46,134 nt of DNA from Oscillospiraceae bacterium. GTDB taxonomy: Bacteria > Bacillota > Clostridia > Oscillospirales > Oscillospiraceae. The notes beneath the pieces are model-generated. The model did not search any database. It saw nothing but the letters and a program-made list of their open reading frames with translations, and had not been told where the DNA came from. Both the position numbers and the translations under genes were made by a program. The stretch spans positions 1-46,134 of the forward strand of contig SVLK01000013.1 of the NCBI GenBank assembly GCA_015067975.1, given 5' to 3'. The stretch's first letter is position 1, and each line of letters opens with the position of its first letter. Positions 22,712 to 45,944 of this stretch are shown one piece after another.

Positions 22712-23329
22712 ATGAAAAAGCTGTTTACCGTTCTTTTGACACTGCTGCTTCTCTCCCTCACCGCCTGCCGCCGGGACATTGTGACTGACGATAAGCCTGT
22801 CATCTACCTCTACCCTGAAACGGAGACACAGGTGACGGTGACGCTGGACTACGACGGCGTGCTGACCTCCGCCTACCCCGCCTACGAGGACGGCTGGACA
22901 GTGACCGCCCAACCGGACGGCACGCTGACCGACGCAGACGGACGCACCTACTACTGCCTGTTCTGGGAGGGGGAGAGTGGATGCGAATATGACTTCTCCC
23001 AAGGCTTCTGCGTGGCAGGTCGCGACACCGCCCCATTTTTGGAGGACGCTCTTGCGCAGCTGGGACTGACGGAAAAAGAGGCCAACGAATTCATCATCTA
23101 CTGGCTGCCCCGTATGGAGCACAATACTTACAACCTCATCTCGTTCCAGAGCGACTGCTACACCGACAGCGCCGCGCTGCACATTGACCCTGCACCGGAC
23201 AGTATGCTGCGCATATTCATGGCATGGCAGGCACTGGACAAGGCAGTAGATGTCCCCACCCAGCCCCTGCCCGCCTTCACCCGCAGCGGCTTCACCGTCG
23301 TTGAGTGGGGCGGCGCACAAGTCAAATAA
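22712..23329 (+). CDS. Lipoprotein of the KPVIYLYP type
   Basis: 205 residues with a lipoprotein signal (LLSLTAC, Cys19). The mature part begins DKPVIYLYPETETQVTVTLDY, a motif found in a family of Bacillota surface proteins of unknown role; later YWLPRMEHNTYNLISFQ is conserved-looking. A preceding ECF-sigma-type promoter suggests induction by envelope stress. GGAGG lies before ATG 22712. It converges on the end of the phage module. Confidence 0.8.
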   Translation: MKKLFTVLLTLLLLSLTACRRDIVTDDKPVIYLYPETETQVTVTLDYDGVLTSAYPAYEDGWTVTAQPDGTLTDADGRTYYCLFWEGESGCEYDFSQGFCVAGRDTAPFLEDALAQLGLTEKEANEFIIYWLPRMEHNTYNLISFQSDCYTDSAALHIDPAPDSMLRIFMAWQALDKAVDVPTQPLPAFTRSGFTVVEWGGAQVK

Positions 23330-23342
23330 ATACCGCATTTGT

Positions 23343-23374
23343 CCCCCTCCCATATCGGGAGGGGGCTTTTTCTT
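23343..23374. terminator. Terminator between lipoprotein gene and phage module
   Basis: Stem CCCCCTCCC/GGGAGGGGG followed by CTTTTTCTT; it ends the lipoprotein transcript and touches the last codon of the minus-strand phage module. Confidence 0.85.
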
Positions 23375-24470
23375 ACACGCTCACACCGTACCGCCCCAGC
23401 AGAGCATCGAATTTCTTCTTCTGGGCAGGGGTCATGCGCCCCGCGTACTGCTGATAGAGCGCCGCAGCAGACACCGCATCACCGCCCTTGCAGTAGTTGG
23501 TGATGGCGCGCTGCAAGCTTTCGGCGGCAGCGGAGCTGAGGCTCTGCTGCTTTTCCGACGGCAGTGCCGCACCGGTGTTGTTTTTCGCGCCGCCCGAAGC
23601 TTTCTGCTCCGCCTCTGCCTTGTCGGCATAGTATTTCAGCATGGTTTCATAGGCAGACTTGTCCTGCTTTTCCAGCGCGGCGGTCTTGTCCTCGGCGCGC
23701 TCCACGGCACGTTCCCATGCCTCCTGCGCCGCCTGCCACTGCTCATACTCCGCCTGCTGCGCCTCCTGCACCAGCGCATAACGCTGCGCCAACGTATCGG
23801 CGCTGTCGATGTAGCGCCCGTAGGCCTGCTGCTGCAGCTGCGGAATGACCTCATTCAGCGCCTGCAGATACTGCCCATATGCCTGCTGCGCCGCGCTTTG
23901 GGCATAGGTAGAGCCGTAGCCGCCGGTGAGAGCGGATGCCTTGCCCAGCGTGTCGGCCATGGCAGCCTTGCCCTGTCTTTCGTAGAGGGCGGCATAGCTG
24001 CGATAGGCCGCATCCTGCGCCGGGTCATAGGAGAATCCGGGACGGGCGGACAGCTCGTCGTACAGGGCGGACAGCTGCGCATCAAAGCCGGACACGTATT
24101 CCTTGGGCTGCAGCGCAGCAAGACTCTCCTGCTCAGCGCGGGCAGCATTCACCTCGTCCGAGGGTGTATAGCCCTGTTCCAGTTGGCTCAGGCGGTTTGC
24201 CGTTTCATCCGACACACCGGAGAGCACCTGCGTGGATGCGGTAGGTCGGGATGGTACAGCACTCTGCAGCAAATGCCCCCACGTTTCCTCACCCACGATG
24301 CCATCCACCTGCAGCGCGTTCTTTTTCTGGTAATCCACCACAGCGCCGCGGGTCAAATCGCCGAAGATACCGTCCACCTCCAGGCCGTAGCCCTTCTCGT
24401 TCAATTTCTGCTGCAGCGCGGAAACATCCGCTCCGCGGCTGCCGTAGCCTACACTTTTATATGCAGCCAT
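23373..24470 (-). CDS. Phage-module protein with peptidoglycan-binding domain and coiled coil
   Basis: 365 residues. Residues about 5-70 form a PG_binding_1 domain (YGSRGADVSALQQKLNEKGY, DGIFGDLTRGAVVDYQKKN, DGIVGEETW). The rest, about 100-365, is Ala/Gln/Glu-rich with heptad-like pattern and repeats such as AQQAYGQYLQAL. No catalytic domain is seen, so it is not an obvious lysin. As the last gene of the module it could be an internal or tail-tip protein that contacts the cell wall during DNA delivery. ATG 24470 was chosen since AAAGGAG lies eight bases before it. Confidence 0.8.
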   Translation of the reverse strand: MAAYKSVGYGSRGADVSALQQKLNEKGYGLEVDGIFGDLTRGAVVDYQKKNALQVDGIVGEETWGHLLQSAVPSRPTASTQVLSGVSDETANRLSQLEQGYTPSDEVNAARAEQESLAALQPKEYVSGFDAQLSALYDELSARPGFSYDPAQDAAYRSYAALYERQGKAAMADTLGKASALTGGYGSTYAQSAAQQAYGQYLQALNEVIPQLQQQAYGRYIDSADTLAQRYALVQEAQQAEYEQWQAAQEAWERAVERAEDKTAALEKQDKSAYETMLKYYADKAEAEQKASGGAKNNTGAALPSEKQQSLSSAAAESLQRAITNYCKGGDAVSAAALYQQYAGRMTPAQKKKFDALLGRYGVSV

Positions 24471-24504
24471 AGTCTGTTCTCCTTTCGTTATTCCACGCCG
24501 GTCT

Positions 24505-26496
24505 TTATTCCTTGGTGTATCTGCATGTGACATACACCTGCGTATAAGCCGACAGATCTGCGTTGGTATTGATGTACAGTGTGCCGCCGCGCAGCCACAT
24601 GGTCACATTCAACGGATTGTTGCCGTTATCGGGCAATCGGACGAACACATCGCCCACCGGATCATGGGCGATGACGGTGAAGTCCACCAGATGCTCCATC
24701 GCTCCCAGCGCAAGGCCCTGCGTGGCGTTGTTGGGCAGCGCGCCAAAGGCTTTGAGCTGCACATACACGGGCTTGCCCAAATAGCGCTGGGTGGTGCGGT
24801 ACTCCACCCCTTCGTGCAGGGGCGCTTTGTCCCACTCCGGCTCCGTCCACGTGGCACCACCGTCCTCACTGCGGCGCGTGATGACCCAGTCGAGATATTT
24901 CATGGTCTGAAAAATCGATGCTTCGCGCCGCTCCACCATCAAATGTCCGTAGCCTATTTCACCGGGCACACCGGGCGGTGTGGTGCAGGCAGCGCCGGCC
25001 AGTGCATACCAGCCATTTTCCAGCGCATTGTCCGGATTGGTGCAGTATCTGCCGTTCTGCGCGCCCAGACCGTAGCCGCCCACGCAGCTCCACGGTACGG
25101 CATCGCCGTCCTCTGCCGGCATCGGCAGGCCGTGGAGCCCCTTACCGTTCATGTGAAGCTCCCAGCCCATATCCAGCCCGTTCCGCTCGGGATATTTACC
25201 GAAGGCGGCGCCGCTGCCGCCATCGCGGAGCATGAAGGTGATTTCCTCGGTGGGTATGGTGTACACGACGCTGCGGCACTCTCCCAGTGCATCGGTGGCA
25301 GAGAGTTCGACTTCAAAGGAGGTGGCGGCAGAAAATCCGTAGATAACGCGCTCCACACCGTTTTCCAACAGCTCGTAATCGCTCCAATCCATGCCCGAGG
25401 GGCGGTTACGCACCTGCACACGCAGCGCATTGTGTCCGCCCACGGCGGCGCAGGCGGCAGCGCAGTATACGGCGATATAGATGCCGCTGCCGTTGGGTGT
25501 GCCGTCACTGTCGCAGCGTCGGGCATAGGATGCAGAGATGACCGGCACATGGTAATCGTACACCGTGATGTCCGGCACATATTTGACCGCCGTGTGTCTG
25601 CCGCGGCTGTCCACCGCCTGTATCTGCGGCGTGAATGTACCGGCCGCAGGCAGCACTGGCGTGGTGCCGGAAATACCGTCGGCGGTCAGGTTGGCACAGC
25701 TGAAGGTGCCGCCCACCACATCGGAGCCGTAGGCCTCCTGCGTCTGCGCCGAGTAAGCGATTCTGGATTTTCCTCGGACATAGATCTCCCACTCCGAAAG
25801 CACTGCATTGTCATTTACCGGCCGAAGCGTCAGTTCGGTCACGACCGGTACAACTTCCGCCGGCACATAGGCGGTGAAATCATAGCTGCTGCGGCCGATT
25901 TCGCTGCCATCGTGATAGGTGCACAGTGTCAGCGTACCGGTTCCGGAGGCACTGTGGGGCAGCTGCGCGCACAGGGAAATATCCGGTGTCCACACCACCG
26001 CACCGCCCGATGCACCGCTGCACACAGTACCGGAGGCGCTGCCCAGCGTATAGGTCAGCGTATGGGTAAAGACAGGCGAGGCGGCCTGTATGGTAAGGGG
26101 ATTGTCCGCACCCAGCGTGATGGCCGGTACGCTCAGGGAGGACGAGCGCGAAATCGCGGGCAGTTCCAGCAGCTGCGTTGCGTACACCCAGTCCACGTAG
26201 TCGGTGTTCATGTCTAATCCGGCCTCCACCGTCACGGTTTTGGTGCCATCCTGTGCATGCACCGCCGTATGTTCGCCGCTATAGAGGGCAGTGGTGGTGT
26301 TGATGTCCACCCACTTGCCGTTCAAATCTGCGATTTGCGCGCCGTCCAGCCGCAGATACCCCTCGGTGGTGCCGTCGTGGCTCCAGGTGCCGTCGGTAGT
26401 GGTGACGCTCAGTTCAATGCGTACACGGCTGGTGTTGGCCGATACATCGGTGCTGCCGGAGACCGGCGTGACTGTCAATGTCAGTTCTGCTGCCAT
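24505..26496 (-). CDS. Phage minor structural / fibre protein (DUF859-like)
   Basis: 663 residues, Ser/Thr/Gly-rich and beta-structured. The opening LTLTVTPVSGSTDVSANTSRVRIELSV style and the later beta repeats resemble DUF859-type minor virion proteins; the C-terminal part (GGYGLGAQNGRYCTNPDNALENGWYALAG) resembles receptor-binding or tail-fibre knobs. It probably forms the host-contact device of the particle. GGAGGG lies six bases upstream; it begins 4 bp after the preceding gene ends. Confidence 0.75.
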   Translation of the reverse strand: MAAELTLTVTPVSGSTDVSANTSRVRIELSVTTTDGTWSHDGTTEGYLRLDGAQIADLNGKWVDINTTTALYSGEHTAVHAQDGTKTVTVEAGLDMNTDYVDWVYATQLLELPAISRSSSLSVPAITLGADNPLTIQAASPVFTHTLTYTLGSASGTVCSGASGGAVVWTPDISLCAQLPHSASGTGTLTLCTYHDGSEIGRSSYDFTAYVPAEVVPVVTELTLRPVNDNAVLSEWEIYVRGKSRIAYSAQTQEAYGSDVVGGTFSCANLTADGISGTTPVLPAAGTFTPQIQAVDSRGRHTAVKYVPDITVYDYHVPVISASYARRCDSDGTPNGSGIYIAVYCAAACAAVGGHNALRVQVRNRPSGMDWSDYELLENGVERVIYGFSAATSFEVELSATDALGECRSVVYTIPTEEITFMLRDGGSGAAFGKYPERNGLDMGWELHMNGKGLHGLPMPAEDGDAVPWSCVGGYGLGAQNGRYCTNPDNALENGWYALAGAACTTPPGVPGEIGYGHLMVERREASIFQTMKYLDWVITRRSEDGGATWTEPEWDKAPLHEGVEYRTTQRYLGKPVYVQLKAFGALPNNATQGLALGAMEHLVDFTVIAHDPVGDVFVRLPDNGNNPLNVTMWLRGGTLYINTNADLSAYTQVYVTCRYTKE

Positions 26497-26499
26497 GGC

Positions 26500-27228
26500 T
26501 TACCCTCCTGTCCACTGGAATTTCAGTCCGCCGCCATCGCCGGAGATGTTCCATCTGCCGGCGGTGATGCTGCCCAGCACCGTGATATTGGTGATGTACA
26601 GGCGGTTATTGGACACATAGGCCACCTCTTCGGCATCCTGCCAGAAGCTGAGCTTGCTGGCGGTGTAGGTGGCGCGGAAGTTGTTCTGACTCACCACCTG
26701 CTCGCCGTCCACCTCCGTGGTGGTAAGGTTCTGCCCCACCGCCACGCCGTACACCGGCACAGCACCATCGTAATAGACGATGCCGGTGCGGATGTAGCCC
26801 TCGGTGCTGGCCTTGTAGTCGGCAAAGGCGGCAGAAATCGCATCGGTGTTGCTCTTCAAATCGGAGGCGAAGCTGTAGTACTGGGTCAGCGCAGCGGGAT
26901 TGGCCTCGATGTAGCTGCTCAGCTGCTCGATGTATGTGCCAAAGTCGGAGGAGGCCACATAGCTGCCTTTGAACTCCGCGGAGAGAACGTCCATCTCCCG
27001 CTGTACCTGTGTGGCGGTCTTGATGATAAGACTTTTGAGATTCCGATACTGCTGCTGTTCCTCCACCGCCGTCTGCTTGGCCGCGGTATGAGACTGCTGC
27101 AGCGCCGTGTCCGTCTGCTGCAGCGCCACGTTCAGCTGCTGGGCCATTTGGAAGAGGTAGGCGTACTGCCGCGCCACTTGCTGGGCAAGGGTCCCTGTGG
27201 GACGCTGGGGCAGCGTGATGTGGCTCAT
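26500..27228 (-). CDS. Phage tail-associated protein with coiled-coil N-terminus
   Basis: 242 residues. Residues about 12-75 are Gln/Ala-rich and heptad-like (QQTDTALQQSHTAAKQTAVEEQQQ begins this), and the C-terminal about 100 residues (VYGVAVGQNLTTTEVDGEQ, then RATYTASKLSFWQDAEEVAY, then GSITAGRWNI) resemble the shaft and tip repeats of phage tail spike or neck proteins. It overlaps the previous gene by 4 bp (ATGA). Function is inferred from position only. Confidence 0.75.
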   Translation of the reverse strand: MSHITLPQRPTGTLAQQVARQYAYLFQMAQQLNVALQQTDTALQQSHTAAKQTAVEEQQQYRNLKSLIIKTATQVQREMDVLSAEFKGSYVASSDFGTYIEQLSSYIEANPAALTQYYSFASDLKSNTDAISAAFADYKASTEGYIRTGIVYYDGAVPVYGVAVGQNLTTTEVDGEQVVSQNNFRATYTASKLSFWQDAEEVAYVSNNRLYITNITVLGSITAGRWNISGDGGGLKFQWTGG

Positions 27229-28931
27229 GTCACGTCACTCCCCTTCTCATACACCGCCGACAGGCTGTGGACAGTACACGCACCTACGCCCTGCAGCTTC
27301 AATCGCAGATGCGCGCAGCGGCGGGGCTGGATGTAGAGCAGCGCGCCCTCCATGAAGCCGCGGCCGAACAGTTCGCCCTGTCTTTGCCACGTCCGTCCCT
27401 GGTCGTAGCTGACGTAAGCGACCACATAGCCGCCGGCGGCCGGCTGGGCGTTGATGGCCATGCGATTAAGGTACTTGTGCTGCGGCACGTCTTGCCCCAG
27501 TTCCCCTGTCTCGGCGCACCATGTGAAGTTGTCCTCTTCCTCTGCCCCGCCGCGCAGTGAGAGCAATGCACCATCGCTGCACAAGCAGAAGATATCGCCG
27601 CCGCGGCAGGCAAAACCCACCGCCTGCGTACCGTCCTCCCGATGCCACAGGCGGCGGCGCGTGTCGTACACCAACAGATGCGCGGCGCCGCTGTCATCGC
27701 GCAGGCTGAGATAGTACCTGCCCTGCCACGCGCCGCCCACCGCGTCGGTGCACCCCTCATAGGGAAGCGCGGCAGAGATGTTCACCGGCAGACTGCCGTC
27801 GAAAGCGTATACACCGCCGATGCCGTGGTAGTAAAGCGTACCGTCTACCGTCTGCAGACTCCGGTGGCTGCCGCGCCGCACACCGGTGCACTCCAGCGTG
27901 ACGATTTGGTGGGCGCCGTTGGCCGCCGGATACACCTTTTCGATGCAGTGTTCCTTGAAGAACAGGGGGTATCCCAGATAACTGCATGCCGCGGTGAATG
28001 CGCCGTCGCTGCCGCGGGAAGCAGCGTAGCTGTCGGTGGAAAGTCCCTCGAAGCAGCGCCAATTCTTGAAATCGCCCAGTTTGCTGGCATAAATCTCGTT
28101 GACGGCGCGGCCATTCACCATGCCGTATTTGCAGCCCCAGATGCGGTTGCCGCACTCGGTGACATAGTCCATCTCCGGTACGGTGCGGCGCACTGTCACA
28201 GGCTCGCTCTGGCTGCCCTCACCGGAAAGGACACCGTCCATCACCAGCATATCGTCGCTCACCTGCCGCAGCACATGGCTGCCGTTGAGGTGCGCTTCGG
28301 TGCAGCCGGAGATGTCCACACCGTCACCGAGTGCAAAGCCGATGCCGATGCCGGCAGCGGAGAGCTTGATGCACGTATCCGTCACCGCCACCCATTCCCC
28401 ATCGCCGCTGCGTTTTAGTACAGGCGCGGCAGAGGTGTCCAGCCACAGCGCGCCGTTTTGTGCCTCAACCGGTGCGGTGTCGGAGATAAGATAGCTCTCG
28501 TAATCGGTACCGTCAGCACAGCACAGGGAAAAGCGTACCGTACCGGTGGTGACGGTCTCATTCTCCATGCTGCCGAACTCGCTCAAATCGGCGGTGTTGA
28601 GCCACTTCTTATCAGGGAAAATCAGCAGATACGCGCCCATGGAGATGAGCTGCTTGGGACTGTCGCTGAGCACCAGACCGGTGGCCTTGCCGCCCACGCA
28701 GAGGGTATTGCCGTCCACCCAGATAAGGGCGTCCTTGGCCGTCACACCGTTGGGACGGTCAAGCTGCGCCTCCATCGCGCGAAAAGGGCGTGTCTGCAGC
28801 GCAGGGTAGCCGTCGGCGCACAGGTTTTCCATGTGGACGAAGCTGCCGTCGCCGCCCTGTTTGTCCAAGCCGAAAAAGCGATGGACGGTGCGGCGGCTCT
28901 GGCTGAGCACGCGTAAAGCGTTGAAAAACAT
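27225..28931 (-). CDS. Phage tail stabilisation-like protein (gp10-type, beta-propeller-like)
   Basis: 568 residues with repeating beta-strand blocks such as VDGNTLCVGGKATGLVL, NRIWGCKYGMVNGRAVNEIYAS and GTLYYHGIGGVYAFDG, as in the P22 gp10-type stabilisation proteins of short-tailed phages, which close the portal and bind the needle. Assignment rests on size, repeats and place after the connector gene. ATG 28931 was preferred because GGGGGAGAGG precedes it and the upstream ATG lies in the preceding gene. Confidence 0.7.
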   Translation of the reverse strand: MFFNALRVLSQSRRTVHRFFGLDKQGGDGSFVHMENLCADGYPALQTRPFRAMEAQLDRPNGVTAKDALIWVDGNTLCVGGKATGLVLSDSPKQLISMGAYLLIFPDKKWLNTADLSEFGSMENETVTTGTVRFSLCCADGTDYESYLISDTAPVEAQNGALWLDTSAAPVLKRSGDGEWVAVTDTCIKLSAAGIGIGFALGDGVDISGCTEAHLNGSHVLRQVSDDMLVMDGVLSGEGSQSEPVTVRRTVPEMDYVTECGNRIWGCKYGMVNGRAVNEIYASKLGDFKNWRCFEGLSTDSYAASRGSDGAFTAACSYLGYPLFFKEHCIEKVYPAANGAHQIVTLECTGVRRGSHRSLQTVDGTLYYHGIGGVYAFDGSLPVNISAALPYEGCTDAVGGAWQGRYYLSLRDDSGAAHLLVYDTRRRLWHREDGTQAVGFACRGGDIFCLCSDGALLSLRGGAEEEDNFTWCAETGELGQDVPQHKYLNRMAINAQPAAGGYVVAYVSYDQGRTWQRQGELFGRGFMEGALLYIQPRRCAHLRLKLQGVGACTVHSLSAVYEKGSDVT

Positions 28932-28945
28932 TCCCTCTCCCCCTC

Positions 28946-29284
28946 TCAGCACAGTTTCAGCGCTGCGGCGGCGCCGCCCTCAGTGCGGGCGCGGTAGTCC
29001 CGCCACGAGAGCAGCATCGTGTTCCACAGCGCGATGGCGTTGTTGTAGCGCTCCAGCTCGCCGTTGCAGTAGTGGATCTGCGCCTCCACATAGTGGCGGT
29101 AGAGGTCGCTGTAGGGCGCGGCGATGGCGAGCACCGTGTCTTCTGTCATCTCCGCAGGCAGCGTTCCGCCGATAAAGGTGGCGGCAAACCCCTCGGCGCG
29201 GTGGAGCCAGTGGAGCTTCTGCTCCGCGGTGTATTGATTGGGCAGCAGTGTGTCCACCTGCTGCAGCACCTGAGATGCCGTCAT
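28946..29284 (-). CDS. Phage head-tail connector/adaptor protein
   Basis: 112 helical residues: SQVLQQVDTLLPNQYTAEQKLHWLHRAEGF followed by a helix-rich middle and NAIALWNTMLLSWRDYRART, features of small adaptor proteins (gp6/gp4-like) that attach below the portal. The gene comes after the capsid gene and a 68-aa gene, the usual place for adaptors. Its start has GAGGGGAGG upstream. Confidence 0.7.
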   Translation of the reverse strand: MTASQVLQQVDTLLPNQYTAEQKLHWLHRAEGFAATFIGGTLPAEMTEDTVLAIAAPYSDLYRHYVEAQIHYCNGELERYNNAIALWNTMLLSWRDYRARTEGGAAAALKLC

Positions 29285-29303
29285 ATTGTCCTGTCCTCCC
29301 CTC

Positions 29304-29510
29304 TTATTCAGCCATGCGGTCTACGTAGCGGCGGGCTTCCTCGGCCATTCTGCGGCCGTTTTCCAGCACCTCCGCCACATAGACGGGCACTTCCACTTCC
29401 ACGCCCTTCATGATCTTGAAGCTGCGGCCGTTGACCGACACGATCACAAAGTTCTCCTCGTTCTTTCTGCCGCGCGGCAGCAGAATCTTCGTCATCTTCG
29501 TCTTTTCCAT
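29304..29510 (-). CDS. Small phage virion-module protein
   Basis: 68 residues: ILLPRGRKNEENFVIVSVNG, RSFKIMKGVEVEVPVYVAEV and a helical end. This type of short protein following the capsid gene is frequent in Clostridia prophages, but no function is known. The start at 29510 has AGGAGG upstream; a second in-frame ATG follows five codons later. Confidence 0.7.
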   Translation of the reverse strand: MEKTKMTKILLPRGRKNEENFVIVSVNGRSFKIMKGVEVEVPVYVAEVLENGRRMAEEARRYVDRMAE

Positions 29511-29543
29511 AGTTCCTCCTTACGGTTGTGTGGTAGGTGCGCA

Positions 29544-29567
29544 GGAGGGGCGGTGAGCCGCCCCTCC
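29544..29567 (-). other. Strong hairpin after capsid gene
   Basis: Perfect stem GGAGGGGCGG-tgag-CCGCCCCTCC lies between the capsid stop codon and the next gene. With no T-run it may protect the capsid mRNA 3' end or act as a partial terminator giving more capsid than downstream proteins. Confidence 0.55.
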
Positions 29568-29574
29568 CTTACCC

Positions 29575-30570
29575 TCAGTTGGCCTTGTCGGTGTCGGAGT
29601 AGCTGGAGCCGCACTCCACGCGCACGATGTATTCATCGTACAAAATGGCGGCCGCGTGAACACCCTTCCAACCCACGCTGGAGCGCTGATCCAGAGGATC
29701 GGCGGTGCCGGAGGAGCCGCGGGGCTTGACGATGACCTCGGTGCCCTCACTCAGGTCTACCACGCCATAGGCGCCCTTGCCCAAAAACAGGCAGGCGTAC
29801 ACGGCGCAGTTGTCCTTACCCTCGTTGAAGATCTTGGCCTCGGTAGTCTCCACAAAGCGCACGCCGTGCAGCTCGCCGATCTCGCCGCTGAACAGCTCCG
29901 TGGCGGCGGCGTACTGGTGGGCAGCCAGCCAGCTCTCGTCCTGACGCAGGTCGAACGCCACGCTGGGGTGGATGATGCAGATGTACTTGCCATCGAACTT
30001 GGGGGCGTTCATCTTCTTCAGCTGCGTGGCGGCCTTGGCCACCAGTTCGCCGGTGATCTTGCACTCGCCGGTCAGCTGAGAGCGGCTGGTGACCTCGGTG
30101 CCATCGGCCATGGGGGCGTAGATCACCTGATTGCCCTGCACGATCTCGTTGCGGGTCACGGTGTCCAGCGTCAGGCCCATGTTGGCGCCGTGGCGGTCGG
30201 TGATCTCCAGCACCACATCGTCGATGGCGGTCAGGTCCAGCATGTCGGACACGGTGGTGTAGTCGCCGTACTGGGCCAGCTCCTTGGTGATGTAGCTGAC
30301 GGAGATACCGCTGCCGTCGGGAGTGACGCCCTCAGTCAGGGGAGTGAGCGCCTTGTCGAAGGCGCCGAACTTACGCCACTCCACCGTCTTGCCGCCGCCC
30401 ACAGGCAGCGCCTTGGTGGCAGCGAACTGGTTGTGCACCAGCTGGGGCTTGGCATTTTCCAGCAGCTCCATGCCGTAGTAGGTCTTCATCTCGGCGCTGA
30501 GGCCGGAAGTGGTCTGGGTGTTCATTTCGCCTGCAAACAGCTGCAGGTCATAGTGCTTCATCAGTTCCAT
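29575..30570 (-). CDS. Major capsid protein (N4-gp56 family-like)
   Basis: 331 residues. Hallmarks: the block TPLTEGVTPDGSGISVSYIT followed by KELAQYGDYTTVSDMLDLTAIDD, then NMGLTLDTVTRNEI, FDGKYICIIHPSVAFDLR and GVRFVETTEAKIF, which follow the N4-gp56 capsid family pattern. The N-terminus carries DLQLFA at residues 8-13, the kind of site cleaved by Prp proteases (compare LNLQFFA in ribosomal protein L27). A Prp homologue is encoded two genes upstream. The start at 30570 has AAGGAG seven bases before it; upstream in-frame ATG codons lack this. Confidence 0.85.
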   Translation of the reverse strand: MELMKHYDLQLFAGEMNTQTTSGLSAEMKTYYGMELLENAKPQLVHNQFAATKALPVGGGKTVEWRKFGAFDKALTPLTEGVTPDGSGISVSYITKELAQYGDYTTVSDMLDLTAIDDVVLEITDRHGANMGLTLDTVTRNEIVQGNQVIYAPMADGTEVTSRSQLTGECKITGELVAKAATQLKKMNAPKFDGKYICIIHPSVAFDLRQDESWLAAHQYAAATELFSGEIGELHGVRFVETTEAKIFNEGKDNCAVYACLFLGKGAYGVVDLSEGTEVIVKPRGSSGTADPLDQRSSVGWKGVHAAAILYDEYIVRVECGSSYSDTDKAN

Positions 30571-30646
30571 AAAAAATCTCCTTTTCCAATCAATCTTTTG
30601 GTTTTTTCCGTTTTTTCCCTGCCGCAGATGTGGTGTGGCGGTTGGC

Positions 30647-30664
30647 GGATGCCCTTTGGCATCC
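30647..30664. other. Hairpin in scaffold-capsid intergenic region
   Basis: Perfect stem GGATGCC-cttt-GGCATCC in the gap between the scaffold stop and the capsid start; no T-run. Confidence 0.5.
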
Positions 30665-30691
30665 CGACCCATCCCTGTGTGGCGGCAAATC

Positions 30692-31258
30692 TCAAAAGCG
30701 GATCTTCTCCCCGTCCATGACGCGGCGGCGGATATCGGCCAGCTGTGCGCTGCTGAGCGCCTTGGGGTCGCTGCGCGTCACGGCAGCGCTGCGTGTGCCC
30801 GCTTCGCTGACGCGGCGGCGGCTGCTCTGCACGGTGCGCGCGCTTTGCTGGGCACTGCGCTGCGCGGCATAGGTCATGGCGCGGCGCAGCAGTTCCTCCC
30901 GATGGGTCACCTCATAGGCGGTGCGCGCATCAATACCGGCGGCGATGAGGCGGGCAAACTCGCCCTTTTGCACCTCGCGCTGCCAGTCAAACTCGGGGTA
31001 GATCTGCTGCAGCGCTTCCTGCTGCCCCTCCAGTGCGGCAAAGGCGGCGTCCGAGCGCTGCCGGCGCGCCGTTTCCTGCGCACGTAGACGCTCATTCTCC
31101 CGGCGCAGTCCGCGCAATCGGCCGTCCAGAATTTTCTGCACCCGCTCCTCAAAATCCGCCTTGTACCGCCCGCGGATCAGCGTTTCAAAGGTCTCCTCCC
31201 CGGCGTCGGGAGCACTTTCGCCCGCGGTGTTCTCCACCAGTTCCCTGTTCTCGTCCAT
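30692..31258 (-). CDS. Phage scaffold protein
   Basis: 188 residues, highly charged and almost entirely helical: acidic N-terminus (ENTAGESAPDAGEETFE), central coiled coil with ERVQKILDGRLRGLRRENERL, basic C-terminal half (SSRRRVSEAGTRSAAVTRSD) ending with DIRRRVMDGEKIRF. This charge layout, size and position between protease and capsid genes fit an internal scaffold, whose basic C-terminus binds the coat. No other identity seems better. Confidence 0.75.
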   Translation of the reverse strand: MDENRELVENTAGESAPDAGEETFETLIRGRYKADFEERVQKILDGRLRGLRRENERLRAQETARRQRSDAAFAALEGQQEALQQIYPEFDWQREVQKGEFARLIAAGIDARTAYEVTHREELLRRAMTYAAQRSAQQSARTVQSSRRRVSEAGTRSAAVTRSDPKALSSAQLADIRRRVMDGEKIRF

Positions 31259-31321
31259 ACGATTCCTTTCCCGTGGTAAGCCACGACCTCTTGTTTCAAC
31301 CCGCCCTCCCTGCCAAAAATT

Positions 31322-31597
31322 TCACTCCACCTTGACGCACTGGGGATACTTCCCCGCCAGCTGTGCCAAGCCGCAGCGCAGCACCGACAGCTGCGCCTCG
31401 CACCCCTCCTGCGCCCATACCATGGCGTAACCGGGGCGCAGCACCAGCTCACGCAGCGCGCCGCTTTCCTCCAGCGCACCGGCAAGGGCAAAAACCAGTG
31501 CCGACACCGCCGCGCACACCGTATCTTCGCCCCGCGGTGCATTTTCCGCATGACCCTGCAGCGTCACCCGGTCACGGGTCCATACGACCTGAATCAT
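31322..31597 (-). CDS. Prp-family cysteine protease (candidate phage maturation protease)
   Basis: 91 residues. The conserved block GHAENAPRGEDTVCAAVSAL places His16 and Cys28 with the 12-residue spacing of the Prp catalytic pair. Host Prp trims the N-terminus of ribosomal protein L27 and in Staphylococcus also matures phage 80-alpha capsid and scaffold proteins. Here the gene sits between portal and scaffold, overlapping the portal gene by 4 bp, exactly where head-maturation proteases are found. The capsid protein carries LQLFA at its N-terminus. A cell-wall or ribosome role is unlikely given the position, but not excluded. Confidence 0.85.
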   Translation of the reverse strand: MIQVVWTRDRVTLQGHAENAPRGEDTVCAAVSALVFALAGALEESGALRELVLRPGYAMVWAQEGCEAQLSVLRCGLAQLAGKYPQCVKVE

Positions 31598-33402
31598 CTC
31601 GGATGCACCGCCAGCTGCGTTTTACGCCGCTGCTGCTCCATGGCATCGCGCTTGATTTCCCCGGCGCTGCCGCCACTCGCGCCAAATTCCTGCTGCAGCG
31701 ACTGCACCAGCGCCGTGCCTTTCTCCCGGTCCACCACCGCCGCGATGGCCAAGAGTTTTTCACGCAGCGACGCAATCTCCGCGCTCTGCTGTGCGCCGCT
31801 TTGGATGGCATTCACCACCGCGTCCTTGTTCTTGAAATCCATCAGCGACAGACAGCGCAGCGCCTGATCGGCCAGATCTGCCCGGAAGAATCCCATGCCG
31901 AACAGCTGCAGCGCCAACTGATTGTGCTCCATGGTCTGGTAGGGGTTTTCCTCCTGCGCGTCGATCTCCAGATCGAACTCCGGCACGCGGTAGTAGGGGT
32001 TGCCCAAGCCATCTCGCAGCGTCTGCATCTGCAGTCCTGCGCTGTGGTAGTCCACAAACTCTTCGCCGTTCTCCCCCAGCAGACGGAACTGGCGGGGCAG
32101 GGTGTAGAACTGGCGGATCAGCTCGATGCACAGCGTTACCACGTCGGCAAAAGCCTCGTAGCCGTCGTCGATCATGTTGCGGCTCAGCTTGCCGCCGGCC
32201 TCCTGCAGCGCAGCGATGGCGGTAGCTGCGGTGACGCCGCCGCTGGTGCCGCCGTTGGCCACGTCGCGGTTGCCCGCCGTTTCCTTCATCTCGGCGATCT
32301 TGCTCTGCAGCACCGCCACGTATACGCCGTCCAGTCCTGCGGTGTGGATGGGGGCGATGGAATCGGCACCCAGATTGCCGTTGGTGTGGACAAAGGGCTT
32401 CGTCCAGTCGGCGTACTCGGCCTCATTGATGGCACCGTCGGCACGGATGAAGAAACGGGGCGTGGCGGCGGCCAAAGCGTTCTTCAAGATGGCCTGATTC
32501 ATCAGGTCGATTTGCTTCTGGGGCGACTTGCAAAGGTCCACATAGCCGTAGCCGCAGGGGGTGCCCTCCTCGGGGAACAGCGGGTCAAACACGAAGGGAT
32601 ACTTGCCGTGGTCGTACCAGCCGCGGCGGGCGATGTCCGGCTCCTCGGTGTCGTTTTCCGTGGCGTAGAGCACCGTTTCGCCCACAAATTTGCAGTATTG
32701 CAGCACTTTTCTGCCTTTGTCCTCGGTGTGGTAGTACCAATCCACCACCAGCGACTTGTCGGAGGTATCCACCGCGTCGTCGTAGAGATAGCGGCTCACG
32801 TGGGCATCGCCGCGCAGCTTGCCCTCCAGCTGAGGGTAGCGTCCCAGCAGCTCGTCGTTGTTCACCAGTTCGGTGGCGAAGAAGTGGGGCGAGTCCTGAA
32901 TGTCGGTGACGCCCGGCTCCCAGTAGAGGTGCAGCAAATCCATGCTGCGGATGGTGATGTCGCCAAGGCCGCCCAGCTTGTCCCCGTCCCAGAACACGCC
33001 GTAGACAGCGCAGCCGGATTTCAGCTTGCGCCACCACGCATCGGAGTAGACGCGCTTGAAGCGGCCGCGCTTGAGGATGACGGGCAGGATACGGCTGAGC
33101 TGCTTGGCCTCCTCCCTGTCGCCGGCCTCACGGGGCAGCACGGTGGGCTCGGGATAGCAATCCATGGCGTCGGCGTGCTTGGAGAGGATGCAGTTCACCA
33201 GCCAGCCGCTGGTGGGCTGCGGGTCGTGGGGATTGCCGCCGCAGCCCTCCTTTTCCATCTGCTCCCAGTGGCGCAGTTTCCAGAACTGCTCGTTGTCGAT
33301 AAGGCGCTGCTCCAGATGCGCCTTGCCCTGCTTGTACTTTTTGAGAATCTCTGCCGCCTGACGCACCTGCTGTGCGCCGATGGGGGCTTGGTAGTTGTCC
33401 AT
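31594..33402 (-). CDS. Phage portal protein (P22-like)
   Basis: 602 residues, portal size for short-tailed phages. Seen: early KLRHWEQMEKEG, WLVNCILSKHADAMDCYPE, the middle YWEPGVTDIQDSPHFF and PCGYGYVDLCKSPQKQIDLMNQAIL (stem-wing region), GGVTAATAIAALQEAGGKLSRN (conserved portal helix), and a helical tail rich in Gln. It should form the twelve-subunit ring for DNA passage. Its start lies 28 bp below a family C element, and AAAGGAGG is upstream. A family B repeat separates it from the terminase gene. Confidence 0.85.
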   Translation of the reverse strand: MDNYQAPIGAQQVRQAAEILKKYKQGKAHLEQRLIDNEQFWKLRHWEQMEKEGCGGNPHDPQPTSGWLVNCILSKHADAMDCYPEPTVLPREAGDREEAKQLSRILPVILKRGRFKRVYSDAWWRKLKSGCAVYGVFWDGDKLGGLGDITIRSMDLLHLYWEPGVTDIQDSPHFFATELVNNDELLGRYPQLEGKLRGDAHVSRYLYDDAVDTSDKSLVVDWYYHTEDKGRKVLQYCKFVGETVLYATENDTEEPDIARRGWYDHGKYPFVFDPLFPEEGTPCGYGYVDLCKSPQKQIDLMNQAILKNALAAATPRFFIRADGAINEAEYADWTKPFVHTNGNLGADSIAPIHTAGLDGVYVAVLQSKIAEMKETAGNRDVANGGTSGGVTAATAIAALQEAGGKLSRNMIDDGYEAFADVVTLCIELIRQFYTLPRQFRLLGENGEEFVDYHSAGLQMQTLRDGLGNPYYRVPEFDLEIDAQEENPYQTMEHNQLALQLFGMGFFRADLADQALRCLSLMDFKNKDAVVNAIQSGAQQSAEIASLREKLLAIAAVVDREKGTALVQSLQQEFGASGGSAGEIKRDAMEQQRRKTQLAVHPR

Positions 33403-33430
33403 GATGTTCCTCCTTTGGTAAAAGTCCTTT

Positions 33431-33489
33431 CACCTATAGGCGCTACGGGGTGGTTTGTTGCATAAAAAAGGGCAACAAAAATGGATTTT
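33431..33489 (-). promoter_or_regulatory. Family C upstream element, copy 1 (portal gene)
   Basis: As read towards the portal gene: AT-rich quasi-palindrome, AAATCCATTTTTGTTGC, 10-base spacer, GCAACAAA, then CCACCCCGTAGCGCCTATAGG ahead of the ribosome site. Near-identical to 35994-36052 and conserved at 45597-45653. Confidence 0.75.
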
Positions 33490-33558
33490 ACAAAAATTTT
33501 TATATTTTGGGTGTTATATCCCCGCTTACGCTCCCGACAGTCCCCACGGATATGCTGC

Positions 33559-34009
33559 CTTGTCCTGTCTTCGACGACCTCTTTTCTTTCCAACAGCGGA
33601 AAGAAAAGAGGAAAAGAAACGCCGCAAGGAACCGATGGTTCCTTGACCTCCTTTACTCTCAAGAGTTGCTGACAAAGACAAGCCGAAATGTTGCATTGAT
33701 TCATCGTCTATCTCGCTTAGCCGCTCACCCTTGCGGAAATGTAGAAGTACAAGCTCCTATATTTTAGAGCGGTAAGCGGACGAGCGATAAGAAGCTGAAG
33801 ACAATGCTACATTTGCACTACGGAAAAAATTTCTTTTCAATTCGCGCGGCAAATAGTTACCCTGTTCCTCAGCGGTTTGCTCGCGCAAAGGATCCACGAC
33901 ACCCCAAAAACACGAGCGTAAGCGACGGATTTTCGGCTGGTGGAACGCATGCGACAGCGCGAAGCGCTTAGTGTCGCTCTTGACAAAAGTCACCCGCCGG
34001 AGGCAAAAC
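33559..34009 (+). repeat. Family B hairpin repeat, copy 2 (full length)
   Basis: It starts CTTGTCCTGTC, has hairpin CTCTTTTCTTTCC/GGAAAGAAAAGAG (33579-33610), AAACGCCG, hairpin CAAGGAACC-gat-GGTTCCTTG, GACCTCCTTTA, AAATGTTGCATTG and the complementary CAATGCTACATTT about 120 bp later around an inner stem AAATGTAG..., then CGCGCGGC and ends near CCGCCGGAGGCA. It fills the 640 bp gap between portal and large terminase genes; no gene is seen inside. Confidence 0.85.
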
Positions 34010-34042
34010 ACACCACCGACTTCACAGTGACCACCGCAAGCG

Positions 34043-35404
34043 TCAGCGCCGCGCCTGCTTCATCAAATCCAGCGGGTCGTCTGCCGGCAGTGCGCCGCCG
34101 CTGCGCCGCACCGGTGCGATGGGGCGTGACATACAGAAATAGCGGCACTCGTCGGCCACGTGGTCCTCCTGATGGGTGTCCAGATCCTCGGGGTCGGTGT
34201 TGGAGTAGAGCAGCAGCGGCACCGTACGCAAAAAGGCGCGGCAGGTGGAAAACACATACATCATGGGATAGCCCTCGTCATCGAAGCTGAGTCGGTAGTG
34301 CATCTGCATCCAGCCGCTGATGCGGCGGTTGTCGCCCTTTTGGAAGTAGATACGGTGGTGCAGCGCCGTTTCATAGATGCTCTCGCCGCGGCTGGTGTCC
34401 CAGATGGCGGGGTCGGCCACGCCCTGAATGTCCCGCCCCTTCAGCCACGGGTGGTTCTCCTCTATCTCGCGGATGCGGCGGAACTGCCGCTCCGGCGTCC
34501 AGCGCACGCCCTCGTCGGGATTTTCGGTGCAGCCGTAGAGCTCCAGGATGCGGTAGATGACGCCGTCGAAATCCACCGCCCACCACGCGCAGGAAAAAGG
34601 TTTGGCGTAGCCGAAGTCGTAGCTGCGGTAGATGCGCCACTCCCGCGGGATATCGAACGGCGGGATGACGTGGGTGAAGCGCCGGTCGGCGTAGTGGTCG
34701 GGGTCGTCGGTGAACTCAGAGAAAAACTGCCCTTGGAAGATGTCCCAGCGTCCCTCCAGCCACGCAAGGCGCAGCTGCTGCGGCAGCGCTTTGAGCTGGT
34801 CGAGATAGTCCGGCTGAGCCCGCAGCAGCGCCGTATTATCGGTGACTTTTGCGGGAATAAAGGCATAGTCGTCACGGTTCTCGCCGGGAAGATAGCGCTT
34901 GTCGATGAAGAGGCGCTTGATGTAGCCGTGGCCCGGTCCACCGGGGTTGCAGGTGTAGTAGATGCGCTTGGGGAAGGCATTGACACCGCGCAGACACGCC
35001 GCGAACTGCCGCAGCCATTCTGGCCGCAGCTGCGTGGCCTCGTCGATGAAGATGACATCGTACTCCGCGCCCTGATAGCGGTCCAAATCGCTGTCGCAGG
35101 CGCAGTAGCCGAAGTCCAGCACGCTGCCGTTCATGAAGCGAAACTGCCTTGCCGTGGCGTGGTATTCGGCGATGCCGCGAAGCTCTGCGCGCAGAAAGCG
35201 GAGGTGGTTGTTCTCCAGCTCCTGATAGGTGCGGCGGATGAGCAGCAGGCGGATGCCCGCATAGCGCAGCGCCAGCAGCTTTGCCTTGGTGCGCACCGCC
35301 CAGCTCTTGCCGCCGCCGCGGGCGCCGCCAAAGGCGATGTACTTTTTCTCGCAGCGCAAAAATTCCTCCTGCCGCGGATTGGGCCGCTGGATTCGGCAGT
35401 TCAT
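34043..35404 (-). CDS. Phage terminase large subunit
   Basis: 453 residues. The ATPase has Walker A AFGGARGGGKS (about residues 24-34) and Walker B DVIFIDEAT (about 116-124); the nuclease domain begins YRSYDFGYAKPFS with a metal Asp (about 268) and later VADPAIWD. It packages DNA into the head. ATG 35404 overlaps the TerS stop (ATGA) and has GGAGG about ten bases upstream; ATG 35413 is possible. Motifs are intact, so the packaging motor appears functional. Operon with TerS and the zinc protein. Confidence 0.9.
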   Translation of the reverse strand: MNCRIQRPNPRQEEFLRCEKKYIAFGGARGGGKSWAVRTKAKLLALRYAGIRLLLIRRTYQELENNHLRFLRAELRGIAEYHATARQFRFMNGSVLDFGYCACDSDLDRYQGAEYDVIFIDEATQLRPEWLRQFAACLRGVNAFPKRIYYTCNPGGPGHGYIKRLFIDKRYLPGENRDDYAFIPAKVTDNTALLRAQPDYLDQLKALPQQLRLAWLEGRWDIFQGQFFSEFTDDPDHYADRRFTHVIPPFDIPREWRIYRSYDFGYAKPFSCAWWAVDFDGVIYRILELYGCTENPDEGVRWTPERQFRRIREIEENHPWLKGRDIQGVADPAIWDTSRGESIYETALHHRIYFQKGDNRRISGWMQMHYRLSFDDEGYPMMYVFSTCRAFLRTVPLLLYSNTDPEDLDTHQEDHVADECRYFCMSRPIAPVRRSGGALPADDPLDLMKQARR

Positions 35405-35775
35405 CGGCTCCATGCCTCCGCCTCTCCCTCCAGCACCACCTGCACGGTGTCCGATTCCGCCCCGCTCTTGTCCTCACTTTGCAGCATCTGCTGCAGCTGC
35501 ATCAGCTCGCGCAGCACGCCCGTCATCTCCTTGAGTTCCTTGGGGCTCATGCCCTCTGCCTGCTGCGTTGCCTGCTGCGCCGCGGTGCGCAGCGCACCGA
35601 CCACCTGCGCCAGACACTCCTCCATGCCGTTCTTCCTGCCCCGCCGCCAGCCCTCGGCACGGGCGCGGCGTCCCACGCAGTCTTCCGACAGACCGTACGC
35701 TTCGCCCAGCGAGCGGTACGTTTCTCCGCCGTTTTCATAGCGTGAGCGCAGTTCGGCCCAGGGTATTCGTTTCAT
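35401..35775 (-). CDS. Phage terminase small subunit-like protein
   Basis: 124 residues. An N-terminal helix-turn-helix (WAELRSRYENGGETYRSLGEAYGLSEDCVGRRARAEGW) is followed by a helical oligomerisation part and an acidic end. It lies directly before the large subunit with a 4 bp overlap, as small terminases do, and should recognise the packaging site. It also overlaps the zinc-protein gene by 4 bp (ATGA). Confidence 0.82.
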   Translation of the reverse strand: MKRIPWAELRSRYENGGETYRSLGEAYGLSEDCVGRRARAEGWRRGRKNGMEECLAQVVGALRTAAQQATQQAEGMSPKELKEMTGVLRELMQLQQMLQSEDKSGAESDTVQVVLEGEAEAWSR

Positions 35776-35963
35776 TCCGGTTCACCTCCTACGCACAGAT
35801 ACGCAGCAAACACATGCCGCGCATAGTCCTCCAGACAGGCAGTGCAAAACGTTTCACCGTTGATGCGGTAATACTCCTCTCCCCGGTAGATGGCATCCCC
35901 GCACAACCGGCACTCCGCCGCCTGCACCGCGCCATCGTCCTCGCGGACGGCACAAAAGCGCAT
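35772..35963 (-). CDS. Small zinc-ribbon protein, first gene of terminase operon
   Basis: 63 residues with CRLCG at about 19-23 and CTACL at about 40-44, a four-cysteine zinc site around EEYYRINGETF. Such short zinc proteins are common in phage DNA-packaging neighbourhoods; function unknown. ATG 35963 is 9 bases after AAAGGAG; a GTG one codon upstream is also possible. A family C element ends about 30 bp upstream. Confidence 0.75.
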   Translation of the reverse strand: MRFCAVREDDGAVQAAECRLCGDAIYRGEEYYRINGETFCTACLEDYARHVFAAYLCVGGEPE

Positions 35964-35993
35964 CACATCACGCTCCTTTCGTAAAATGTCCTT

Positions 35994-36052
35994 CACCTAT
36001 AGGCGCTACGGGGTGGTTTGTTGCATAAAAAAGGGCAACAAATATGGATTTG
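35994..36052 (-). promoter_or_regulatory. Family C upstream element, copy 2 (terminase operon)
   Basis: Inverted arms TTTGTTGC-N10-GCAACAAA, then CCACCCCGTAGCGCCTATAGG (read on the minus strand). The distal side has the AT palindrome GAAAAATATTTTTC at 36053-36069. Differs from copy 1 at only one or two positions over the core. Confidence 0.75.
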
Positions 36053-36074
36053 ACGAAAAATATTTTTCTCCCCC

Positions 36075-39594: not shown

Positions 39595-40011
39595 ACAGCT
39601 TGTCCTGTCTCCGACGGCCAACTTTTGTCACGAGCAACAAAAGTTCCCAAAAATGCCCGTTGAAACCAAGGTTTCAACACTTCCTTCCCGCGAGCGGAGC
39701 AAGCAAAAACACCGGCAAGTACCGCCGCGCGAATGAAAAGGAGAATCTTTCCGTAGTGTAAATGTAGCATTGTCTTTTGCTCCTCTTTGCGCTGCCGCTT
39801 TTGCTCAAAAATGTAGAAACGATTTCTCCTACATTTCCGAAAGAGTAAGCGGCCAAGCGGGTTAGACGAAAAGCCAATGCAACATTTAAGCTTGTCTTAC
39901 TCCGCGCATCTTGAGAATAAAGGAGGTCAAGGAACCATCGGTTCCTTGCGGCGTTTCTTTCCCATCTTTCTTTCCGCTGTTGGAAAGAAAGATGGCCGCC
40001 GGAGGCATAAC
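39595..40011 (-). repeat. Family B hairpin repeat, copy 3 (full length, inverted)
   Basis: Read on the minus strand it has hairpin ATCTTTCTTTCC/GGAAAGAAAGAT, AAACGCCG, CAAGGAACC-gat-GGTTCCTTG, GACCTCCTTTA, AAATGTTGCATTG paired with CAATGCTACATTT, an inner stem GCCGCTT...AAGCGGC, and CGCGCGGC. The far end (39598-39660) carries another CTTGTCCTGTC, a stem ACTTTTGT/ACAAAAGT and a stem GTTGAAACC/GGTTTCAAC: same layout, different stem sequences. It fills most of the 39509-40092 gap. Confidence 0.85.
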
Positions 40012-40050
40012 AAGTTCTCCCCCTCCGCAGAGGCCATCGAAAGCGCAAAC

Positions 40051-44990: not shown

Positions 44991-45527
44991 TCACAGTCCC
45001 AGCAGCAGCTTCACCTTCAGCACCGCCGCCACCGTTTTGGCATCTTTGATCTCCCCTGCCATGCACCGCTGATAGAGCGCGTCAAAGGGTACATGCTCCA
45101 CCGTCAAAAACTCGTCCTCGTCGGGCTGTGCCTGCGAATAGGACAGCTCCTGCGCCAGGTAGAGATACAGCGTCTCGCCGTAGCAGCCCGGTGACGGGAT
45201 CAGCGCTCCCAAATCCGTCCACTTGGCGGCGGTGGCGCCCACCTCCTCCAGCAGCTCCCGCTGCGCGGTGAGGAAAGGCTCCTCCCCCACTTCCCGCTTG
45301 CCGGCGGGGATCTCCACCATGTTGCGCGAAAAGGCGTAGCGGTACTGCGTCACCAGCGGCACGCAGCCATTGTCGTCCAGCGCCACGATGCCCACGCCGC
45401 CGGGATGATCCACGATCTCGCGGTAAGACGTGCCGCCGTCGGGCAGCGACACCTTGTCCACGTGCAGCGACACGACCCGTCCTTTGAAAATATCCTGCCG
45501 TTCCAGCATCGTCTCTTTCAGTTCCAT
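44991..45527 (-). CDS. Nudix hydrolase, ADP-ribose pyrophosphatase type
   Basis: 178 residues. The Nudix box GKREVGEEPFLTAQRELLEEVG (GX5EX7REUXEEXGU) follows VEIPAG; upstream REIVDHPGGVGIVALDDNG is typical of ADP-ribose/NUDT5-type enzymes. It would hydrolyse ADP-ribose or similar nucleoside diphosphate compounds in the cytosol with Mg. Start at 45527 after GGAGGGG. Confidence 0.92.
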   Translation of the reverse strand: MELKETMLERQDIFKGRVVSLHVDKVSLPDGGTSYREIVDHPGGVGIVALDDNGCVPLVTQYRYAFSRNMVEIPAGKREVGEEPFLTAQRELLEEVGATAAKWTDLGALIPSPGCYGETLYLYLAQELSYSQAQPDEDEFLTVEHVPFDALYQRCMAGEIKDAKTVAAVLKVKLLLGL

Positions 45528-45596
45528 GCTCTGCCCCTCCCTTGTTTTTCCCCATCATACCACACCGCCGCGCCTTTGGGGAGAAAATTTTCTCCC

Positions 45597-45653
45597 AAAT
45601 CCATTTTTGTTGCCCATTTTCAGGCAACAAACCGCCCCGTAGCGCCTATATAT
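45597..45653 (+). promoter_or_regulatory. Family C upstream element, copy 3
   Basis: Same order as copies 1 and 2: palindrome GGGAGAAAATTTTCTCCC (45579-45596), AAATCCATTTTTGTTGC, a 10-base spacer of different sequence, GCAACAAA, CCGCCCCGTAGCGCCTATA. It ends about 13 bp before the start codon of the phage-type gene. Confidence 0.75.
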
Positions 45654-45665
45654 GAGGTGATATAC

Positions 45666-45944
45666 ATGGCCAAACCGGGCTTTCTCTTTTATTTCGACTG
45701 GAAACACATCTTCTCCACCCTCTCCCCCGCCGAACAGGGCGCGCTGGTGATGGCGCTGCTCACCTACGCTGAGACGCAGCAGCAGCCCCACTTCACCGAC
45801 CGCACCATGGTGATGGCGTGGAACGCACTGTGGCCGCGGCTGGACGAGGATGCGCGGCGCTACGAAGCAGTCGTGCAAAAGAAGCGCGACGCCGCCAACA
45901 AACGCTGGGCAAAACAGGACGACGGCATGGACAAATACCTGTAA
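45666..45944 (+). CDS. Phage-type small protein (DUF6291-like)
   Basis: 92 residues: FLFYFDWKHIFSTLSPAEQGALVMALLTYAE and MAWNALWPRLDEDARRYEAVVQKKRDAANKRW. This pattern resembles the N-terminal domain (DUF6291) of phage/plasmid proteins related to replication initiation. GAGGTG lies upstream of ATG 45666. It follows a family C element, linking it to the phage module 9.6 kb away. It could be a truncated member, since longer relatives carry further domains. Confidence 0.7.
   Translation: MAKPGFLFYFDWKHIFSTLSPAEQGALVMALLTYAETQQQPHFTDRTMVMAWNALWPRLDEDARRYEAVVQKKRDAANKRWAKQDDGMDKYL

Follow-up and report, generated by a model that had tools for sequence, protein, structure and literature searches.

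A candidate gene transfer agent built on a podophage-type module in a Vescimonas-type genus of Oscillospiraceae

Contig SVLK01000013.1 of an Oscillospiraceae assembly (GCA_015067975.1) carries a compact run of phage-type packaging and virion genes, which raises the question of whether it is a prophage in decay or part of a particle that the host has kept. The window analysed is the whole contig (46,134 nucleotides; G000:C13 in our sample), from a 1.87-Mb genome that is 84% complete. It holds 13 open phage-type genes over ~12.6 kb of the minus strand (35963..23373), in phage order, that together form a podophage-like packaging and virion module. The original prediction, made from this contig alone, favoured a host-kept particle and candidate gene transfer agent (GTA). 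Conservation, a tree that follows the host and selection now support that proposal, with the GTA in its strict sense being the predicted part. The core genes are mainly vertically inherited, open and constrained, and are not mobile in the loci seen; DNA packaging, transfer and regulation are predictions from sequence. We judge it likely that the module belongs to a host-kept particle-making system derived from a podophage module, most likely a GTA. What this analysis newly adds is a palindrome shared across virion, lysis, fibre-like and DUF6291 operons, which probably belong to one dispersed, co-regulated and vertically inherited particle system.

The module and its palindrome

The TerS, TerL, portal, Prp, scaffold, capsid, connector and tail-type genes named in the original prediction are all present, open, codirectional and unbroken, in phage order. 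Its gene list was sound for the genes that it named, omitted a 68-amino-acid (aa) open reading frame (ORF; 29304-29510) and did not separate a 63-aa ORF (35772-35963). The features of the window are as follows.

36019..36040, minus: palindrome TGTTGC-N10-GCAACA in the leader of the packaging operon (35973-36065), with TATAGG 17 nt past the right half-site
35772..35963, minus: 63-aa cysteine-rich (zinc-type) protein, gene 1 of the packaging operon (phrog_10625, function unknown)
35401..35775, minus: small terminase TerS with a helix-turn-helix (HTH)-like N-terminus (phrog_1206, 2e-7)
34043..35413, minus: large terminase TerL (phrog_2, 7e-39), its Walker A, Walker B and nuclease motifs conserved in relatives
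33456..33477, minus: the same palindrome in the leader of the virion operon (33410-33501), with TATAGG 17 nt past the right half-site
31594..33402, minus: portal, P22 type (PF16510, 1.5e-26)
31322..31597, minus: Prp-type cysteine protease (PF04327, 1.6e-13)
30692..31258, minus: probable scaffold, by position (phrog_13908, 2e-34, no function assigned in PHROGs)
29575..30570, minus: major capsid protein (phrog_1357, 1e-77)
29304..29510, minus: 68-aa small protein with low dN/dS (phrog_15239)
28946..29284, minus: probable head-tail connector, by position (phrog_12105, 2e-21, no function assigned in PHROGs)
27225..28931, minus: virion protein, probable tail hub or nozzle (phrog_511, 1e-45, labelled 'internal virion protein' in PHROGs)
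26500..27228, minus: coiled-coil type virion protein of 242 aa, role unknown
24505..26496, minus: fast-evolving DUF859 tail protein (phrog_372, 1e-72), probably the receptor-binding part
23373..24470, minus: peptidoglycan-binding protein, last gene of the virion operon (PF01471, 1e-17; no catalytic domain match)
45608..45629, plus: the palindrome again, in a third leader (45584-45650), 37 nt 5' of the DUF6291 gene
45666..45944, plus: DUF6291 protein, candidate regulon member
44991..45527, minus: NUDIX hydrolase, found next to the module in the chromosome at 12 of the 20 related loci, counting the window
22712-23329, plus: 205-aa ORF without a Pfam match, between the cluster and TetR

About 90 bp lying just 5' of the portal gene recur 5' of the zinc-type gene, 5' of the DUF6291 gene (45666) and in contig C45, as seen when the terminase-portal gap was compared with the window and the genome. 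The C45 copy precedes an unlinked Hol44 holin gene (PF16079, 3e-21) and an endolysin gene of the same genome; the endolysin, so labelled in PHROGs, has peptidoglycan-binding domains and an amidase match (PF01520) below the cut-off. This leader contains the palindrome, followed in the window's genome by TATAGG or TATATA 17 nt past the right half. Elsewhere in the genus, each genome's zinc and portal leaders resemble one another, and what is kept from one species to the next is mainly the palindrome, often with a promoter-like TATA box: the longer form of the window's leader (up to four mismatches) was found in no other species' locus. The expectation of unlinked co-regulated genes, which the original prediction drew from known GTAs, thereby gains support at sequence level, in that an unlinked holin-endolysin cassette carries the leader of both virion operons and of the DUF6291 gene; their co-regulation is predicted.

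The palindrome was then counted in a genus sample of 32 genomes, 14 of them at least 90% complete, which includes the cultured species Vescimonas coprocola (G001, whose small contig has exactly the sequence of plasmid NZ_AP023419.1) and V. fastidiosa MM35 (G002, with contigs corresponding to NZ_AP023417.1 and NZ_AP023416.1). Modules of the window's kind (TerL at least 74% identical) are called type A and those with TerL at 60-68% type B. The exact sequence TGTTGC-N10-GCAACA occurs at 49 sites, against 5 for a backwards-read control. Sites are present in 19 of the 21 type A genomes (none in G009 and G012) and in 0 of 11 genomes free of type A (Fisher 6e-7, uncorrected for kinship); for unlinked sites alone the figures are 14/21 and 0/11 (4e-4). 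Twenty-one sites are linked to core genes and 28, including the one in C45, are unlinked. Phage-type genes lie downstream of 16 of the unlinked sites, nine recognised by profile match and seven by blastp to those:

Hol44 holin and amidase: G000, G018, G024
PF05105 holin and Amidase_2: G003
Dp-1-type holin and amidase: G020
amidase: G019
phrog_4105 membrane protein: G000, G004, G016, G024 (then a Dp-1-type holin in G004 and G016)
fibre-like proteins: G004, G016 (DUF6273), G027 (collagen-type tail fibre)
DUF6291: G024, G027
RepA_N/DnaD-like protein: G023

The lysis operons under the palindrome draw on three holin families (Hol44, PF05105 and Dp-1-type), and a second, unlinked locus with holin and endolysin genes, as in an FpGTA-type system (see below), is found at G000:C45, G003:C41, G018:C14, G020:C157 and G024:C37 and, with one mismatch in the palindrome, in V. 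coprocola. The V. coprocola site, one of nine such sites in that genome, precedes genes for a phrog_4105-like small membrane protein, a holin and an amidase, and its assignment rests on these genes because one-mismatch sites overall are not above control (9 vs 7). The parts are seen to be dispersed, as in known GTAs, with palindrome and leader common to them. A TATA[A/G] box stands at the expected distance on the gene side of 13 of 41 sites and on the other side of 1 of 41.

Several exact sites were not counted as members: three orthologous, terminator-like ones between convergent XRE-type and SDR-type genes (L349, L368 and L373, in G002, G020 and G025); two inside genes (G010, G019); two in G020 (L365 5007, L366 5042) before genes that look by eye like dnaG and dnaA, which are either chance or a link between regulon and replication; and five unlinked sites of unclear context. 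The PF05105 holin was rejected as a general lysis gene, being present in 10/32 genomes but missing from that of the window and from V. coprocola and V. fastidiosa, where other families serve.

Pfam and PHROGs profiles bear out the original statement on missing accessory genes: no match to an integrase, a repressor, a replication protein or a catalytic lysis protein lies between TetR/putP and sdpRI. The final virion gene matches a binding domain only. The left flank given as TetR/putP needs correcting for the 205-aa ORF that precedes TetR. Rfam and tRNA scans of the window returned nothing. A dispersed intergenic repeat of up to ~290 bp lies in the window at 33550-33850, 39724-40014 and 18049-18212 and also on contigs C31 and C33; the 640-bp gap between terminase and portal genes, outside the leader, holds this repeat and was excluded from the finding.

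Inheritance, selection and layout across the genus

TerL of either type is present in 26/32 genus genomes and in 13 of the 14 that are at least 90% complete. Type A core genes occur in 21, of which 20 were recognised via TerL and one (G016) via portal and capsid; type B occurs in eight, two of which also carry type A. Among the 14 more complete genomes, nine have type A, four have type B only and one (G030) has neither. In V. fastidiosa the module is annotated at 759119-772553 of an 861-kb replicon (NZ_AP023416.1, L319) deposited as plasmid pMM35_01. Beyond the genus, TerL matches, many of them weak, were found in 110/250 genomes of the family sample, and capsid matches in 63/395 genomes of the order sample.

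All 20 type A TerL sequences form one clade (SH-like approximate likelihood-ratio test 99). For the 17 genomes with both proteins, 7 of 14 splits are common to the trees of TerL and RpoB, a number that none of 2000 label shuffles reached (mean 0.15, maximum 4), and the presence of type A amounts to four changes on a 27-genome RpoB tree. Distances also correlate with those of RpoB for the phrog_511 protein (r 0.57, 0/999 permutations as high), TerS (0.53, 1/999), portal (0.47, 0/999), TerL (0.38, 1/999) and the peptidoglycan-binding protein (0.33, 26/999). The conservation check that had been proposed for this locus finds the type A core in 21 of the 32 genomes, with recurring chromosomal neighbours and a tree following the host, which is the pattern of chromosomal virion genes and vertical inheritance looked for in a GTA.

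The ratio of non-synonymous to synonymous substitution (dN/dS), likewise a proposed check, was calculated from called starts for pairs with dS 0.05-1.2. Purifying selection is evident in TerL (median 0.217, 141/190 pairs), portal (0.254, 73/91 pairs), capsid (0.221, 66/66 pairs) and the 68-aa protein (0.21, 49/66 pairs). Medians are 0.48-0.50 for the phrog_511 and peptidoglycan-binding proteins, and selection is weaker in DUF859 (0.77) and TerS (0.82). For comparison, the neighbouring host NUDIX gene has a median of 0.42, and rpoB values are 0.04-0.11 in a separate run on stop-to-stop frames. The TerL motifs reported as intact in the window are kept in relatives: Walker A is identical in 20/20 type A TerL sequences, and the nuclease motifs vary little.

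The complete run from TerL to the peptidoglycan-binding protein is found in 11 of the 20 type A TerL loci, the window included, the others being cut by contig ends. The NUDIX gene neighbours the module in 12/20 loci; in the window a stretch of host genes stands between the two. In 6/20 loci the neighbours include genes that look by eye like smpB and ppiB, with a transfer-messenger RNA (tmRNA) gene near in four. On the far side of the virion operon, neighbours are the same within a clade: metQ/N-like genes in G009, G017, G018 and G023, and energy-coupling factor (ECF)-transporter-like genes in G010, G016 and G027 (both by eye). The zinc-TerS-NUDIX segment is inverted relative to TerL in five of the 20 loci (L063, L064, L065, L069, L071), and in five (L062, L066, L068, L070, L071) the module is split, with TerL followed by at least 4.6 kb without a portal match; the genes of split or inverted modules remain open. 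The portal lies on another contig in G020 and G027, as does the capsid in G010, and neither gave a match in G004 and G013 (73% and 66% complete).

No replication or integration gene accompanies the cluster in the window's flanks or the fetched type A loci, and no integrase, repressor and replication genes were found joined to it in a contiguous element of the temperate-prophage kind. The sole integrase near a type A locus, a tyrosine integrase in G021 (L063 2-922), stands beside the tmRNA gene on the side away from the module and is a separate mobile element at a common attachment site. Neither observation that was to refute the original prediction, a contiguous prophage with att sites or confinement to a single strain with decaying genes, was made for the window's cluster.

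Other compact modules were seen alongside type A. A type B element of ~12 kb occupies one shared place in four related species (L075/L076/L077/L078, in G022/G015/G028/G011) and combines genes resembling those for a repressor and ImmA with the run from TerS to the tail genes, a PF05105 holin and an amidase-like gene; neither an integrase nor a replication gene was seen. It may be a further resident particle system, one whose control is linked to it. Compact TerL-portal-capsid modules of ~10-12 kb also occur in other families of the order (L299-L303 in g144, L304-L307 in g189, L317-L318 in g199), several of them preceded by a repressor-like gene and followed by a holin-like one.

Weighing the readings

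A conserved packaging motor, complete head genes, the lack of replication and integration genes, and lysis and fibre genes under one operator together argue for a gene transfer agent. A podophage module would have been captured once in an ancestor of most of the Vescimonas-type genus and then kept by the host. One regulator acting at the palindrome may switch all the parts on together in some cells; the portal, scaffold, Prp protease and capsid would build a small head, TerS and TerL would fill it with DNA, the short tail would then be attached, and bursting of the cell would fall to the unlinked holin and amidase. The cargo is most likely host DNA, as in a GTA, because there is no replication gene or integrase and so no obvious phage genome. 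We also lean, by a little, towards a modular GTA in which packaging, virion, fibre and lysis genes are separate chromosomal cassettes recruited under one operator. The unit of inheritance would then be the regulon and not a phage-like locus, because unrelated holin-amidase sets would have replaced the lysis cassette in different species while the operator was kept.

Several observations weigh against this account. Capsid distances do not track those of RpoB (Mantel r 0.10, 301/999 permutations as high), and constraint on TerS is weak (median dN/dS 0.82). Type A is absent from five genomes that fall within the RpoB clade carrying it (G008, G014, G026, G029, G030), four of them only 76-80% complete. 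At the palindrome, 12 of the 28 unlinked sites have no recognised phage-type gene downstream, the TATA box was scored at only 13 of the 41 sites with a target, and one-mismatch versions show no excess over control (9 vs 7, 5 vs 6 and 3 vs 10 in G001, G009 and G030). A large protein (1165-2685 aa) that adjoins the module in several phage-like relatives is missing here. Lastly, the HTH-like region of TerS (phrog_1206 match) is recognisable in 12 type A TerS sequences, whereas the TerS of FpGTA, the GTA-like element of Faecalibacterium, is described as having no obvious DNA-binding domain (PMC12946183).

The main rival is now a domesticated particle whose role is to kill or to signal and not to transfer genes, in the manner of PBSX or a bacteriocin. 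A weapon would be consistent with the fast evolution of DUF859 (median dN/dS 0.77) and the replaceable fibre-like operons; the large phage protein is also lacking, and the Faecalibacterium authors raise the same option (PMC12946183). We nevertheless consider it unlikely, as the packaging motor is the best conserved part of the module (TerL Walker A 20/20, dN/dS 0.22) and the complete head module is kept. The decaying prophage that had been named as the main alternative, that is, the remnant of a phage minus its integrase, repressor, replication and lysis genes, has lost that place and appears highly improbable. In its favour, lysis has to be supplied from outside the module, the G021 locus has a tyrosine integrase nearby, and whole related phage-like contigs exist, seven in IMG/VR at 37-43 kb and at only 41-63% TerL identity. 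That integrase, however, lies beyond the tmRNA gene and none was seen at the other loci; and decay fits poorly with genus-wide conservation, intact genes, dN/dS well below 1 in TerL, portal and capsid, a tree following the host, and operator sites at unlinked lysis and fibre operons. At TerL identities of at least 77%, IMG/VR yielded four contigs, fragments of 4.3-12.4 kb matching the clusters of G000, G007 and G009, and no complete phage of this type.

A further rival is a mobile satellite or small phage, either a capsid-forming phage-inducible island or a minimal podophage, able to package its own DNA and re-infect. It would be compatible with two GenBank 'Bacteriophage sp.' records from human faeces that cover 13.3 kb of the V. 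coprocola cluster at ~98%. These records are weak evidence because the same set holds MT835878, and they were set aside as proof of packaging. MT835878 (MT835878.1, L320), also labelled Bacteriophage sp., carries genes that look bacterial-chromosomal by eye. The records may be tied to a virus-like-particle study in which, as described there, bacterial matches were removed from the reads (PMC8361208). With no integrase or replication gene adjoining the module, nor the integrase and mobility of its own that such an island has, a host-congruent tree, and split and inverted modules, we give this explanation a very slim chance.

Comparison with known systems

GTAs are known from few lineages. The 2026 gut study of Borodovich et al. 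(PMC12946183) reports three GTA-like packaging events in Onthomonas, of the Oscillospiraceae, without genes for them; as described there, a strong candidate operon was found in only 1/4 genomes searched, a Faecalibacterium. Candidate genes are now available in another Oscillospiraceae genus that includes two cultured species. The short, exact operator lets further parts, such as unlinked lysis and fibre genes, be listed in any genome of the group, and the host's control of such a system and the replacement of its parts become directly testable questions. No report of this module appeared in literature listings on GTAs in Oscillospiraceae, Firmicutes podoviruses, the rumen, GTA regulation or Vescimonas prophages.

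The closest likeness is to FpGTA, which is presented as the first GTA-like element of podovirus type; it has a 10.5-kb operon and an unlinked operon of holin, endolysin and fibre genes, and its purified particles measure 40 nm and hold ~9 kb of DNA (PMC12946183). By that description the two systems share a podovirus-like character, TerS, TerL, portal, scaffold and capsid genes, the lack of replication and integration genes, and unlinked holin, endolysin and fibre genes; a further likeness is that FpGTA is near-universal in its genus as an operon of ~10 kb. The present system differs in belonging to another genus and in being known from its genes, whereas FpGTA particles have been purified. Its unlinked parts form a number of single cassettes that belong to different families and share one palindrome, and the published account as available describes no shared operator for FpGTA. 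The two systems may be of common origin, because other families of the order also have compact modules whose capsids are related.

Judged by capsid, the nearest annotated phages are the ~40-kb Bacillus megaterium podophages Page, Pony, Pascal and Palmer, whose major capsid protein is ~33% identical over ~95% of its length. These are complete phages, unlike the module, which is about one third of their genome length. The alphaproteobacterial RcGTA is siphovirus-like and of unrelated gene content, whereas the module described here is podovirus-like and its host a Gram-positive anaerobe. PBSX of Bacillus subtilis is myovirus-like and forms a single linked, phage-repressed block, unlike the present system, in which the lysis and fibre genes are unlinked and have one operator in common. 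Set against the outline of both systems in PMC12946183, the module resembles PBSX, a defective phage, in being, as proposed here, host-maintained in a Gram-positive bacterium with an intact packaging apparatus, and RcGTA in its vertically inherited virion cluster, its dispersed and, as predicted here, co-regulated genes, and its lack of autonomous replication.

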